64,000 bases of DNA from Cognatundibacterium jejuense (lineage in GTDB: Bacteria; Pseudomonadota; Gammaproteobacteria; Burkholderiales; Burkholderiaceae_D), in NCBI RefSeq assembly GCF_014284255.1, contig NZ_JACOFV010000009.1, forward strand, positions 1 to 64,000. Direction: 5' to 3'. Shown in pieces: positions 59,259 to 64,000 of the stretch. Made by a program: the position numbers and the translations under genes. Under the pieces are notes generated by a model. It searched no databases. It was not told the origin of the DNA and worked only from the letters and a program-made list of their open reading frames with translations. Every line of letters starts with the position of its first letter. Within the stretch, counting starts at the first letter, position 1.

Positions 59259-61040
59259 ATGAATACAACCTCAAAACGCAGTCTTAGCCTGCAGCAAATT
59301 TTTACCTGGTTGATGGAGGATGGCATTATCAAAAAAGAGGATGCCAAAGTTAAATACAATGAAGCGCAAGGCATTTTAAAAAACGGTCCTGCCAGTATGC
59401 ATACACTGACTGCTGCGGCGCAATGCAAATTACAATCTGCAAAAGCACCGCATCATTTACTGACGCTAGACTGGCTAACAGAATGGGCCGCACGTAAAGT
59501 CAATCTGCCGTTTTATCGGATCGACCCTTTAAAAATCGACTTCACGTCCGTATCAGATGTGATGTCCGCAAAATATGCAACGCGCTTTAATATTTTGCCA
59601 GTCGAAACCAAAGGTAATACGGTGGTCGTTGCGACAACCGATCCTTTCAATCACGAGTGGCAAGAAGAGATCAGCCGTATTTCACGCAAAGAGATACGCC
59701 TGGTTCTCGCCAATCCTCTGGAAATTTCGCAATACATCGTCCAGTTCTTTTCCCTGGCAAAATCAATTAAAGATGCGCGCAAGATCAATACTAACGATCT
59801 TGGCCTGCGTCAAAATCTGGAACAATTGGTTGAACTTGGTAAGAGCAATAAGCATCTCGACGCCAATGACCAGCACATCGTCAATATCGTTGATTGGCTA
59901 TGGCAATTTGCGTTTGATCAGCGCGCTTCTGATATTCATCTGGAGCCAAAACGCGATATGGCTGCAATCCGCTTCCGTATCGATGGTGTGTTACACCAGG
60001 TCTATCAGCTACCAGCCAGCATTATGATCGCCATGATTGCGCGTATCAAATTACTGGGACGGATTGACGTAATTGAGAAACGTCGTCCACAAGATGGCCG
60101 TATCAAAACCCGCACCGCCGATGGACAAGAGATAGAGTTACGTTTATCGACCTTACCGACCGTGTTTGGCGAAAAGATGGTGATGCGTATTTTTGATCCT
60201 GAAGTGGTGGTTAAAACCTTACCAGAACTGGGTTTCCCGCCAAAAGATGCAGAACGTTGGGACACACTGACCAAAAAACCGCACGGCATTATCCTGGTCA
60301 CAGGGCCAACAGGCTCGGGCAAAACCACCACGCTCTACACCACTCTTAAATCGCTGGCAACCGCTGAAGTCAACGTGTGTACGGTGGAAGACCCGATTGA
60401 GATGGTCGAAGCATCATTCAATCAAATGCAAGTGCAGTCTTCGATAGACCTCGGCTTCGCTGATGGCATACGGGCATTGATGCGACAAGATCCTGACATC
60501 ATTATGGTGGGTGAGATTCGTGATTTAGAAACTGCTGAAATGGCAGTGCAAGCTGCATTGACTGGTCATCTGGTGCTTTCAACATTGCATACCAATGATG
60601 CGCCATCGGCAATTATGCGCTTATTAGAACTAGGCGTTCCCTACTATCTTTTGGAAGCAACGATTATTGGAATTCTGGCGCAACGTTTGGTACGCACTTT
60701 GTGCAAATTTTGCAAAACACCCGATGGCGAGCTGCCTGATCCCGTCTGGCAAAGTTTGTCAGAGGAATTCGCGCTGCCAAAACCTGCATCCATCTATCGC
60801 CCGGTGGGTTGTCCCGAATGCAGACAAACCGGCTTCCTCGGACGTACCGGTTTGTATGAATTGCTAACGGTCACACAAGCATTTAGCAAACTGATCACCA
60901 AAGAATCCGACATCCACGCATTGCGCGTACAAAGTATCAAGGACGGCATGAAACCTTTACGCATTGCAGGTGCGGAAAAAATCATCGAAGGTTTAACGAC
61001 CGCTGATGAAGTGTTAAAAGTCACATCATCACTCATCTAA
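59259..61040 (+). CDS. GspE/PilB-family secretion ATPase (solitary)
   Basis: 593 residues. An N1-type domain (about 60-170: APHHLLTLDWLTEWAARKVN, FNILPVETKGNTVVVATTDP) precedes the ATPase core with Walker A GPTGSGKT at 349-356, the Asp box region (VCTVEDPIEMVEASFNQMQV), Walker B MRQDPDIIMVGEIRDLETAE and the His box LTGHLVLSTLHTNDAP. Four Cys in LCKFCKTP and GCPECRQTG form the zinc motif of GspE/PilB. It drives assembly of a pilus or pseudopilus, but no other T2SS or pil gene is adjacent; it may serve a system elsewhere, such as the pilus operon in this window. It overlaps the epimerase gene by 4 bp, tail to tail. Confidence 0.88.
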   Translation: MNTTSKRSLSLQQIFTWLMEDGIIKKEDAKVKYNEAQGILKNGPASMHTLTAAAQCKLQSAKAPHHLLTLDWLTEWAARKVNLPFYRIDPLKIDFTSVSDVMSAKYATRFNILPVETKGNTVVVATTDPFNHEWQEEISRISRKEIRLVLANPLEISQYIVQFFSLAKSIKDARKINTNDLGLRQNLEQLVELGKSNKHLDANDQHIVNIVDWLWQFAFDQRASDIHLEPKRDMAAIRFRIDGVLHQVYQLPASIMIAMIARIKLLGRIDVIEKRRPQDGRIKTRTADGQEIELRLSTLPTVFGEKMVMRIFDPEVVVKTLPELGFPPKDAERWDTLTKKPHGIILVTGPTGSGKTTTLYTTLKSLATAEVNVCTVEDPIEMVEASFNQMQVQSSIDLGFADGIRALMRQDPDIIMVGEIRDLETAEMAVQAALTGHLVLSTLHTNDAPSAIMRLLELGVPYYLLEATIIGILAQRLVRTLCKFCKTPDGELPDPVWQSLSEEFALPKPASIYRPVGCPECRQTGFLGRTGLYELLTVTQAFSKLITKESDIHALRVQSIKDGMKPLRIAGAEKIIEGLTTADEVLKVTSSLI

Positions 61041-61957
61041 TTGTTATCTTTGAAACGATGATGTTGTAGCACTGAGTCTAGCGCTGCATCCACGCCCTGC
61101 GTTACTGTCGGATATTGAAACCGCATACCCAATTCCCGTTTGACGCGCTGGTTTTGCATGCGTCGCGATTCCGACATAAAAGACAGTAACATTGGCGATA
61201 CTTGTTGTGCCAGTTCATATCTTGGCAAACGTGGAGGGCGCGGCAATTGAAAGGCATCAGCAACCAAGTCAAAGTACGCCGCCATTTTGAGATCACTGTC
61301 ATCGACCGCGTGATATACCCTTTGCGGCTTAGCGCGAAACAGCGCCAGCATAATCAACTTTGCAAGGTCGTCGGCATGGATGTGATTAGTGTAGACATCA
61401 TCTGCATCCGCTAACGCTGGTGTGCCTTTTTGCAAACGCTCAATGGGTAAGCGATCCGCAGCATAAATGCCTGGCACACGTAAAATCGACAGGTTGGAAT
61501 AACTACGCTTTGCCCATGCACGCAATGCTTGTTCCGCAGCGACGCGACGCACTGCACGCGCATTTTGCGGGCGCACGGTTCTGGTTTCGTCAAATGAGGC
61601 GCCACCACAGTCGCCATACACACCAGTGGTGCTGATATAAACAAGGCGGCTCTTGTCAGGTAAAATGGCGGTCAGATTTTGCGTGCGGATATCTGACGCA
61701 CCTTCGGAGCGCGGGGGCGCGAGATGTACACAGTATGGCGCCAATCCGGCTAATTTCGCCAGACTGGCAGCATTATCCAAATTGGCGACAATCGGTATTG
61801 CCCCAGCTTCACGCAGTTCAGCGCAACGCGCCGGTTGGCTGGTGAGAGCAAAAATCCGGAAACGTGCACGCAACAAAGGTAACAAGCGCATGCCAACATC
61901 GCCACAACCGATGATCAGCAAGCGCGGTTTGCCCATTTTTTTAAACTGTTTTTTCAT
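61037..61957 (-). CDS. NAD-dependent epimerase/dehydratase-family protein (YeeZ-like)
   Basis: 306 residues from the ATG at 61957 (MKKQFKKMGKPRLLIIGCGD); the frame is open to 62008. The Rossmann motif IIGCGDVGMRLLPLLRAR is at about 15-32, with VYISTTGVYGDCGG and NLSILRVPGIYAADRLP typical of extended SDRs of the YeeZ type. The Tyr-x-x-x-Lys pair is not obvious, so catalysis is uncertain. It is divergent from the ferredoxin-reductase gene, with 12 bp between starts. Confidence 0.82.
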   Translation of the reverse strand: MKKQFKKMGKPRLLIIGCGDVGMRLLPLLRARFRIFALTSQPARCAELREAGAIPIVANLDNAASLAKLAGLAPYCVHLAPPRSEGASDIRTQNLTAILPDKSRLVYISTTGVYGDCGGASFDETRTVRPQNARAVRRVAAEQALRAWAKRSYSNLSILRVPGIYAADRLPIERLQKGTPALADADDVYTNHIHADDLAKLIMLALFRAKPQRVYHAVDDSDLKMAAYFDLVADAFQLPRPPRLPRYELAQQVSPMLLSFMSESRRMQNQRVKRELGMRFQYPTVTQGVDAALDSVLQHHRFKDNN

Positions 61958-61969
61958 GCTCAGGATTGT

Positions 61970-62995
61970 ATGACTTTTCAAGTAACTGTGACCCCTAGTG
62001 GTCGTCAATTTAGCTGCGAAGCAGACGAAACCGTATTATCCGCTGCTTTGCGCGCGGGCGTTGGTTTGCCTTATGGTTGTAAGAACGGTGCCTGTGGTTC
62101 CTGCAAAGGTAAGATCACCAGCGGCAACGTCGTTCACGGCAACCATCAGCAACGCGCACTACCAGACAACGAAGAAGCGCAAGGCATGTCCTTGTTTTGC
62201 TGCGCTAAGCCGCAATCTGATCTGACCATAGAAGCACGCGAAATTGCCGCCAGTGGTGAGTTTCCGGTCAAAAAGATGCCAACCCGCGTCGCCAAACTGG
62301 AAAAACTGTCTGATGACGTCATGTTAATTGCTTTGCAATTACCAGCCAATGAGCGTCTCCAATATCGCGCCGGTCAGTACATCGAATTTATGTTGCGCGA
62401 TGGCAAACGTCGCAGCTATAGCATGGCAAATGCCCCACATCTGGATGAACAGATCACTTTGCATGTACGCCATATGCCAGGTGGTTTATTCACCGACCAG
62501 GTTTTCTCGACAATGAAAGAACGTGACATTTTGCGCTTTGAAGGCCCACATGGCACTTTCTTCTTGCGGGAAGACAGCGACAAACCTATCGTTCTGCTCG
62601 CTTCAGGAACAGGTTTCGCGCCGATCAAAGCCTTGGTAGAACACCTGATTTACACAGAATCGACCCGCTCGGTCAGTTTGTATTGGGGTGGACGTCGTCC
62701 AGCTGATTTATACATGGGGGCATTATGTGAAGAATGGGCTGCCAAATTGCCAAACTTTAAATATGTTCCTGTGGTCTCTGCTGCCTTGCCTGAAGATAAA
62801 TGGAATGGTCGTACCGGATTTGTGCATCAAGCAGTACTCGCTGATTTTGCTGATTTGTCTGCGCATCAAGTCTACGCTTGTGGCGCACCTATCGTGGTGG
62901 AATCTGCTCAGCGCGATTTCGTGGCACAACGTCAATTGCCAGCGGAAGAATTTTATGCAGACTCATTTACTTCAGAAGCTGATTTAGCAAATTAA
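61970..62995 (+). CDS. Ferredoxin-FNR fusion reductase (CDP-6-deoxy-glucoseen reductase-like)
   Basis: 341 residues. An N-terminal [2Fe-2S] domain with Cys37, Cys42 and Cys45 (YGCKNGACGSC) and a fourth Cys at 77 or 78 (LFCCAKP). Then an FNR module: FAD site RRSYSMANAP, GGLFTDQVF, and NAD(P) site LLASGTGFAPIKAL and YWGGRRPADLY. This order matches AscD/RfbI-type reductases and oxygenase reductase subunits. The electron acceptor is unknown. AGGA lies 6 bp before the ATG. Confidence 0.9.
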   Translation: MTFQVTVTPSGRQFSCEADETVLSAALRAGVGLPYGCKNGACGSCKGKITSGNVVHGNHQQRALPDNEEAQGMSLFCCAKPQSDLTIEAREIAASGEFPVKKMPTRVAKLEKLSDDVMLIALQLPANERLQYRAGQYIEFMLRDGKRRSYSMANAPHLDEQITLHVRHMPGGLFTDQVFSTMKERDILRFEGPHGTFFLREDSDKPIVLLASGTGFAPIKALVEHLIYTESTRSVSLYWGGRRPADLYMGALCEEWAAKLPNFKYVPVVSAALPEDKWNGRTGFVHQAVLADFADLSAHQVYACGAPIVVESAQRDFVAQRQLPAEEFYADSFTSEADLAN

Positions 62996-63034
62996 TACTT
63001 CTGCTTACGTTTGGTTTCACGAGGAAATTTTTTT

Positions 63035-63172
63035 ATGTCCGGATTAAAATTTATTTTGACGCACTGCGCAAAAAGTCCTACTATCCGGTCTATGAAAAAT
63101 TTTCCTGACATGTCTTCACCAAATATCGTGCGACGTCGCCGCTCGTTCAACGAGCCTGGGCGGATGTGTTAG
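63035..63172 (+). CDS. Candidate arginine leader peptide upstream of argD
   Basis: A 45-codon frame not reported as a gene in any family I know. GAGGAA at 63021-63026 is a good ribosome binding site, 8 bp before the ATG. The product starts MSGLKFILTHCAKS and contains VRRRRS: codons CGA CGT CGC CGC at 63131-63142, with a fifth Arg (CGG) at 63161 and others earlier. The stop at 63170 is followed 38 bp later by an intrinsic terminator and then by argD. This is the layout of amino-acid transcription attenuation. A small structural protein or chance frame remains possible. Confidence 0.5.
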   Translation: MSGLKFILTHCAKSPTIRSMKNFPDMSSPNIVRRRRSFNEPGRMC

Positions 63173-63210
63173 TGTACCTGCGCGTCAGATGAGACCGCAG
63201 CACCAGACCT

Positions 63211-63239
63211 AAGCCACAGGCCAACTCCTGTGGCTTTTT
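63211..63239 (+). terminator. Intrinsic terminator upstream of argD (possible attenuator)
   Basis: AAGCCACAGG at 63211-63220 and CCTGTGGCTT at 63227-63236 form a perfect 10-bp stem with loop CCAACT, followed by T residues and a second T-run. Just upstream CTGCGCGTC at 63180 and GACCGCAG near 63194 can form a weaker hairpin. It could end the reductase transcript or act as an attenuator for argD. Confidence 0.85.
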
Positions 63240-63313
63240 GCTTTTTTACGTTTTAATTTTTATTTTTTCGTTTGTTTTTTATCCACCTCTGGAATGACCT
63301 TAGGAGTCTCGAA

Positions 63314-64000
63314 ATGGAATTCAGTCAGTACAACGTTAATTCTCTGATGTACATCACACCACGCCCGGAAATCGTATTTACCGAAGGTAGCGGTATGTGG
63401 CTGACGGATAATAATGGCAAACGTTACCTCGATTATCTGCAAGGTTGGGCTGTTAATTGCCTGGGTCATAGCCCGGCGGTGATTTCCGATGCCTTGATTG
63501 CGCAGTCGAAAAAATTGCTCAATCCTTCTCCGGCTTTTTACAATGCACCGATGGTAGAACTGGCAACGTTGTTGACGCAAAACTCTTGTTTTGACCGCGT
63601 GTTCTTCACCAATAGCGGTGCTGAAGCCAATGAAGGCGCGATCAAACTCGCTCGTAAATGGGGACAACTGAATAAGAATGGCGCGTTTGAAATCATCACT
63701 TTTGATCATGGTTTCCACGGCCGTACTCTGGCAACCATGTCAGCCTCCGGTAAACCAGGCTGGGACAAACTCTTTGCACCACAAGTTTCTGGCTTCCCAA
63801 AAGCCGATCTGAACGATATCGCATCGGTCGAAAAATTAATCTCCGACAAAACCGTGGCAGTGATGCTGGAACCAATTCAGGGCGAAGGTGGCGTCATTCC
63901 AGCCAACCGTGAATTCATGCATGAGTTACGTGCATTAACCAAAAAACACGGCATCTTGTTGATCGTTGATGAAGTGCAGTCTGGCATGGGTCGCACTGGC
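63314..64000 (+). CDS. argD: Acetylornithine transaminase (N-terminal part, cut by window edge)
   Basis: 229 codons are visible and the frame is still open at the edge. AGGAG at 63302-63306 precedes the ATG. The class III aminotransferase pattern is clear: [70 protein letters not shown] and [12 protein letters not shown] with the Asp that contacts the PLP ring nitrogen. The Schiff-base Lys is beyond the edge. It is the arginine-pathway transaminase or a close relative (succinyldiaminopimelate or GABA types cannot be excluded). A candidate arginine leader peptide and terminator precede it. Confidence 0.88.

Follow-up and report, generated by a model that had tools for sequence, protein, structure and literature searches.

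A probable leader-peptide attenuator with arginine control codons upstream of argD in Undibacterium and related bacteria

Leader-peptide attenuators are known from the trp, his, leu, ilv, thr and phe systems, and to our knowledge arginine is not among the amino acids usually given for this type of control. Arginine biosynthesis is a textbook case of repression by ArgR. The leader described here precedes argD and, like the attenuators just named, appears to combine a short open reading frame (ORF) bearing several codons in a row for the amino acid produced, antiterminator and terminator structures that exclude one another, and a biosynthetic gene. It differs from trp- and his-type attenuators in that its control codons are for arginine and in that it is predicted to be leaderless. 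It is also unlike the T-boxes, which bind tRNA directly and have no leader peptide.

Several described systems share part of this arrangement. In the accessible text of a survey of Actinobacteria, no conserved RNA structure was seen upstream of arginine operons, and T-boxes are mentioned for arginine genes elsewhere (PMC1262725); these T-boxes have control at the RNA level in common with the argD leader. In Sinorhizobium meliloti, the trpL ORF lies at the 5' end of its RNA (rnTrpL) and may act as a leaderless mRNA, according to the part of the report that is accessible (PMC7298713). The likeness to the argD leader would be a leader ORF read from a leaderless mRNA, as predicted for argD; the differences are the amino acid (tryptophan), the gene (trpE(G)) and the bacterial class (Alphaproteobacteria). 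Consecutive Arg codons in orf34 of the Salmonella speF leader mediate a response to arginine (PMC6386406). As far as the accessible portion of that paper goes, orf34 differs from the argD leader in that it works through Rho-dependent termination, precedes speF (ornithine decarboxylase) and is not an intrinsic-terminator attenuator of arginine biosynthesis. The uORFC-8-2 motif before cysS in Rhodobacterales, described in an article available in part, is a predicted ribosome-mediated attenuator with tandem control codons that was found by comparison (PMC8632094), and it differs from the argD leader in its amino acid, cysteine, and its gene. A leader peptide has been reported in the carA 5' region of Pseudomonas aeruginosa (PMC4997734), and the carA motif of betaproteobacteria, mostly Polynucleobacter, is an extended hairpin (PMC8632094). 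Going by the accessible sections of both papers, these carA leaders resemble the argD leader as RNA elements before a gene of arginine and pyrimidine synthesis and differ in the gene itself and in the pyrimidine control in Pseudomonas, and those sections mention no Arg run. The accessible main text of a survey of premature terminators contains none of argD, argF or Arg as whole words (PMC2965389). No published arginine leader attenuator before argD was recognised in our literature search; because most subscription papers lay beyond its reach, the novelty of the argD leader attenuator is not proven.

The locus lies at the end of the window, by which we mean the whole stretch of 64,000 nucleotides that was analysed (Cognatundibacterium jejuense, contig NZ_JACOFV010000009.1, positions 1 to 64,000). 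A first-pass annotation of this DNA had proposed an arginine-responsive transcription attenuator before argD. The features of the locus, with the basis for each, are the following.

63056..63084, + strand: putative promoter with −35 TTGACG (63056-63061), 17-nt spacer and −10 TACTAT (63079-63084); sequence, conservation in leaders.
63092..63172, + strand: leader ORF MKNFPDMSSPNIVRRRRSFNEPGRMC, 26 codons plus stop, with its ATG 7 nt after the −10; conservation, codon-position entropy.
63105..63172, + strand: protector (1:2) structure, predicted to form without a ribosome; folding, pair counts.
63131..63142, + strand: control codons CGA CGT CGC CGC (four Arg); sequence, first Arg codon CGA in 79/80 leaders.
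63155..63161, + strand: left strand of the predicted antiterminator, CCTGGGC (region 2); pair counts, conservation of GAGCCTGGG.
63211..63236, + strand: intrinsic terminator stem-loop (regions 3:4), with a T-rich tail to about 63246; sequence, folding.
63213..63220, + strand: GCCACAGG (region 3), common to the predicted antiterminator (with 63155-63161) and the left arm of the terminator; alignment, folding, pair counts.
63302..63306, + strand: Shine-Dalgarno sequence AGGAG of argD; sequence.
63314..64000, + strand: argD, acetylornithine transaminase, 397 codons, running beyond the end of the window; NF002985.

The four consecutive Arg codons, the stop TAG (63170-63172) at 38 nt 5' of the terminator stem, the stem itself (10 pairs, 6-nt loop, T-rich sequence after it) and a transaminase gene with its own ribosome binding site (AGGAG at 63302, ATG at 63314) are present as the first-pass annotation described them. 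The argD product scores 735 bits against NF002985 (acetylornithine transaminase), for which the cut-off is 568, and no Rfam match was found in 60000-64000 up to E=1. The locus brings together an ORF that appears to be translated, a run of codons for the amino acid of the pathway, an intrinsic terminator, a computed antiterminator and an arginine-pathway gene downstream, and we consider it very probable that argD is controlled by a ribosome-mediated transcription attenuator of the leader-peptide type with Arg control codons.

Relatives were compared for a defined arrangement, namely a −10, an ATG 6-7 nt later, an ORF with at least two consecutive Arg codons and the CCACAGG/CCTGTGG terminator. 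An ArgD search of 392 genomes of the family gave matches in all, and 90 close argD loci were examined, 30 from the search output and 60 added. The arrangement is present in 80 of the 90, with two to four consecutive Arg codons, and absent, with neither this terminator nor a leader, in nine (L048, L054, L071, L082-L085, L092, L093). The tenth, L074, keeps terminator and leader and has a single Arg codon; by eye, its ATG, GKPCA end and terminator are retained and one CGA replaces the run. Among named argD loci, largely from the same species as the 90-locus set, 75 of 80 have the arrangement (not L169, L170, L173, L175 and L191), and they represent Undibacterium, Herbaspirillum, Noviherbaspirillum, Collimonas, Herminiimonas, Oxalicibacterium, Paucimonas and others, and also Glaciimonas soli. 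The persistence of the Arg run and its frame in relatives, which had been set as a test of the attenuator, is thus borne out in both sets. In the comparisons below, "genus" denotes Undibacterium, where these matches place the window.

Outside the family, RNA model R1 was run against 399 genomes of the order and matched 105 at E≤0.01, many among the matches listed covering the terminator end only. Inspection of 14 R1 loci led to the acceptance of two as new and outside the family (L100 and L101, two genomes of another family of the order); both have the arrangement, and in both the terminator arms are changed together, to CCACGGG/CCCGTGG. In eight further R1-matching genomes the best ArgD match lies at another place, and inspection by eye showed no leader in front of that ArgD. 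Less similar ArgD proteins were sampled in 16 genomes, one per genus; in 15 of these the 300 nt upstream hold no short RRR frame. In the sixteenth, L231, a short ORF with the end ALRRRS is found some 80-200 nt upstream of argD, and no terminator was recognised. Comparison across the loci shows that the putative promoter, the frame, the Arg run, the terminator and the gene are conserved together. Three leaders (L029, L038, L040) carry similar insertions, beginning TTAGGACTTA, between the terminator and argD, with the leader intact.

The distribution of the terminator bears on a simpler account, in which it merely ends the transcript of the upstream reductase gene, argD has a promoter after it, and the Arg-rich frame is accidental. 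The reductase gene of the window does end at 62995, 70 of the 80 leader loci have a reductase end in the 700 nt before them, and the terminator would stop reductase read-through too. However, the nine leaderless loci keep the reductase end, 21-131 nt before argD, and lack the CCACAGG/CCTGTGG terminator, while the ten leader loci in which no reductase end was seen still have it. The terminator is therefore more than the end of the reductase transcript. Around the locus a single promoter-like site was found, and it precedes the leader; the leader frame is translated in the genus, as judged by the comparisons described below. This account, which the first-pass annotation had itself named as one that would count against an attenuator, is in our judgement scarcely credible.

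That promoter-like site, TTGACG-17-TACTAT, was the sole one in a scan of 62500-63600; because 1.2 such sites are expected there by chance, the promoter call rests on conservation. In 64 of the 80 leaders a TTGACG stands at 17-18 nt from the −10, and this is the independent count for the promoter. The remaining 16, all from the genus of the window, keep the −10 and the ATG and have no clear −35. The ATG follows the −10 by 6 nt in 22 leaders and by 7 nt in 58, a spacing that is not an independent count because the search picked an ATG 5-8 nt from a TA...T hexamer. ATG 63092 stands 7 nt past the −10, without room for a ribosome binding site, and the mRNA is therefore predicted to be leaderless; both the start site and leaderless translation are what we infer from this geometry. 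The first-pass annotation had proposed a 45-codon frame with a good ribosome binding site. The frame is indeed open from 63035 to 63172, but its start and ribosome binding site were misassigned: ATG 63035 precedes the promoter, at 57 nt before ATG 63092, and no other leader of the set of 80 has an ATG at that place, and for these two reasons it was rejected. Other in-frame upstream ATGs exist in some of the 80 leaders. A second ATG, at 63110, is also invariant in the genus alignment; 63092 is favoured over it because the codon-position bias described below is present already before 63110. Judged by alignment, the conserved start of the leader is ATG 63092, not ATG 63035.

The promoter spacer holds a conserved near-palindrome, TTGACGCAnTGCGCAAAA in the window, which may be a protein site. 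It invites the explanation that a repressor bound to a conserved CGCAnTGCG element between −35 and −10 exerts most of the control of argD, at the promoter. TGCGCA occurs in the 50 nt upstream of the ATG in 50 of the 80 leaders and in 13 of the 16 lacking a clear −35, and the spacer pattern has 41 matches in the window's own genome at up to three mismatches, vs 14 for a reversed control. Against it, six own-genome matches inspected besides the argD site revealed no second promoter, and ArgR was not found. The ArgR family PF01316 was detected in 0 of 41 genomes (the own genome, 24 of the genus and 16 from other families of the order) by a search that was positive in 9 of 14 known genomes as a control. 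It was likewise above cut-off in none of 38 further genomes, 37 of which have the leader; two of the 38 gave matches below the cut-off of 27 bits (24.6 and 21.2 bits). PF02863 had no match in the own genome. According to the accessible text of a survey of regulons in Proteobacteria, many groups of gammaproteobacteria have a highly conserved ArgR, and other classes lack it (PMC5343134). A repressor would also leave the leader and the terminator unexplained, although it could coexist with attenuation, and we consider control mainly by repression improbable.

Translation of the leader frame was assessed from codon-position entropy. Over the 11 codons 5' of the Arg run, the genus (29 distinct sequences) has means of 0.29, 0.25 and 0.84 bits at positions 1, 2 and 3, as for a translated frame. 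In other genera (34 sequences) the values are 1.24, 1.22 and 1.37, and the bias is weak. Gaps within the leader ORF in alignment A1, of the other genera, are multiples of three, and premature stops of the ORF occur in L047 and L079. The comparison thus shows a frame that behaves as translated in Undibacterium and only weakly so in other genera. The run begins with CGA in 79 of the 80 leaders, and the exception has CGA second; as background, 32 long open frames of the window, possibly including some non-genes, contain 702 Arg codons, of which 61 (8.7%) are CGA.

Different constraints appear on the two sides of the run. Before it, at 63113-63130, the residues SSPNIA (SSPNIV in the window) are conserved in Undibacterium with varying third positions, an amino acid conservation that simple codon counting does not need. 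After it, 37 of 39 genus leaders carry GAGCCTGGG unchanged down to the third positions, which do vary before the run; this points to selection on the RNA in the part after the run. Outside the genus the peptide before the run differs (often M..AK.LRRR), and what is shared is the Arg run, the RNA and, frequently, a PG.PC end. The constraint on SSPNIA as amino acids would suit an arrest peptide, that is, a nascent chain that senses arginine in the exit tunnel and works the same downstream RNA switch, in place of slow decoding of Arg codons; nascent-chain sensing occurs in other leaders. Such a mechanism seems to us quite improbable, since the peptide 5' of the run differs in other genera that share the Arg run and the RNA, and since arrest at high arginine would presumably cause antitermination when arginine is high, the opposite of what a biosynthetic gene needs.

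The terminator arms CCACAGG/CCTGTGG are invariant in alignments A1 and A2, whose rows had been chosen for having them. In A1 RNAalifold returned nothing but the terminator, and in A2 it added six further pairs; because it recovered little beyond the terminator, the named structures were tested individually. The alternative fold that the first-pass annotation could not draw by eye is predicted here as a pairing of CCTGGGC (63155-63161) with GCC-a-CAGG (63213-63220); pair counts and ribosome-position folding favour it in the genus and less strongly elsewhere. A weak hairpin near 63180-63201, which had been suggested as a possible part of the antiterminator, sits within the loop of the predicted structure. 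L016 has CCCGGG and a weaker antiterminator.

Pair counts were made on alignments that had not been fitted to the structures; each structure was derived from one alignment member, and the sequences are related to one another. For the genus antiterminator, 77.1% of cells are paired (reached by 0/500 shuffles; at most 38.5% when slid), with a covariation of 0.146 (0/500) and 48 cells changed on both sides (0/500); its outer helix has 93.3% of cells paired, and five of its seven pairs are invariant in 36 sequences. The genus protector has 75.4% of cells paired (1/500; at most 45.8% slid), its covariation being reached by 2/500 shuffles and its cells changed on both sides by 92/500. For other genera the protector is paired in 66.4% of cells (3/500; at most 47.9% slid), with 26/500 for covariation and 38/500 for cells changed on both sides, and the antiterminator in 77.2% (41/500; at most 42.9% slid), with 39/500 and 109/500, respectively; here the outer helix is 93.1% paired and the inner helix 49.3%. 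The numbers of pairs changed on both sides and of further pair types were at shuffle level in all four structure-group tests (reached, respectively, by 328 and 379 of 500 shuffles for the genus protector, 298 and 361 for the genus antiterminator, 314 and 397 for the protector of other genera, and 418 and 148 for their antiterminator). In a simple duplex test, the antiterminator reached p<0.1 in 19 of 37 genus leaders and showed an excess in 0 of 38 leaders of other genera (p<0.1; median p 0.71). Based on the pair counts and the duplex test, the computed antiterminator, which would be exclusive with the terminator, is well supported in Undibacterium and moderately in other genera.

Dependence of the folds on the ribosome was modelled from the ribosome edge, assumed to lie 12 nt beyond the start of the A-site codon, to the end of the left arm of the terminator, that is, before the right arm exists. 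In the genus (n=39), the mean probability that the left arm pairs upstream is 0.32 without a ribosome, 0.82 with the ribosome stalled at the last Arg codon and 0.15 with it at the stop; the corresponding values in other genera (n=41) are 0.14, 0.56 and 0.15. A stalled value more than 0.1 above the stop value is found in 39/39 and 38/41 leaders, and the reverse in 0 and 1, respectively. For stall and for the two differences, stall minus no ribosome and stall minus stop, the group mean was reached by none of 60 dinucleotide-shuffle replicates, in the genus as in the other genera, the replicates not being independent because the leaders are kin to each other. Among single leaders, p<0.1 was obtained for stall in 37/39 of the genus and 4/41 of the other genera, for stall minus no ribosome in 30/39 and 33/41, and for stall minus stop in 38/39 and 7/41. 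As the ribosome is shifted codon by codon, the probability in the genus is 0.80-0.83 while the A-site codon lies between the first Arg (0) and +4, falling to 0.27 at +5, and in other genera 0.44-0.56 from −1 to +7 and 0.25 at +8. The window leader alone gives 0.47 without a ribosome, 0.85 stalled and 0.24 at the stop, a modest result against shuffles (stalled value reached by 3/60, stall minus no ribosome by 5/60). The terminator is thus predicted to be blocked with the ribosome at the Arg codons and free with the ribosome at the stop or with no ribosome.

Our working model is built on these computed folds and their computed dependence on ribosome position. RNA polymerase would start at, or one or two nucleotides from, ATG 63092, giving a leaderless leader ORF. 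With charged tRNA-Arg plentiful, the ribosome would pass CGA CGT CGC CGC, reach the stop and cover CCTGGGC; GCCACAGG would then pair with CCTGTGGC, the terminator would form and argD would go untranscribed. With charged tRNA-Arg scarce, the ribosome would wait at the Arg codons, disrupting the protector and leaving CCTGGGC free to pair with GCC-a-CAGG, so that the terminator could not form and argD would be made. If no ribosome were present, the protector would form and transcription would terminate. An arginine attenuator before argD, as first annotated, is right in kind, given the conservation of the leader in 80/90 and 75/80 loci; the response to arginine and its direction are what we infer.

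A unit with its own promoter, small ORF and terminator might also be a free-standing gene for a small RNA or small protein that acts in trans and lies before argD by chance. The peptide-level conservation in the genus would fit such a gene, and a product of an attenuator acting in trans has a precedent in rnTrpL/peTrpL, as the accessible part of that report describes (PMC7298713). The position before argD is not independent evidence here, because the loci were mostly found via argD. However, model R1 matches the argD leader site alone in the own genome, and the predicted fold switch depends on the position of the ribosome at the Arg codons; we regard a free-standing gene as very improbable, and a trans-acting role could be additional to attenuation. 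A further idea, which we put forward tentatively and think unlikely, is that the leader of Undibacterium goes beyond counting charged tRNA-Arg. Its SSPNIA-RRR peptide would itself be selected, for an arginine-dependent ribosome pause or for action in trans, once released, with the attenuated small RNA, and the unit would take the place of the missing ArgR in sensing arginine in this lineage.

The reach of the attenuator may differ between relatives. In the own genome argF does not come next after argD; the best ArgF match is on another contig and is followed by an argG-like gene. At L159, argD is followed by argF at 25 nt and then argG at 62 nt, with ArgF and ArgG above the NCBIfam cut-offs, and the switch could therefore govern three genes there. 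Upstream of argF in the own genome (L229; G000:C45 near 38085), a hairpin GGCGGCA/TGCTGCC with a T-run stops only a few bases short of the argF ATG and is perhaps a second attenuator-like element; no Arg leader was seen at this hairpin.

The argD leader is real, conserved and well explained, and it concerns an amino acid not usually named in connection with leader-peptide attenuation. Many relatives without an ArgR match above the cut-off retain the leader (37 of the 38 genomes of one set). An Arg leader attenuator kept across genera would explain how argD, and argDFG in at least one relative, can be coupled to the arginine supply without ArgR, and the leader would be a compact natural arginine sensor that is probably leaderless.
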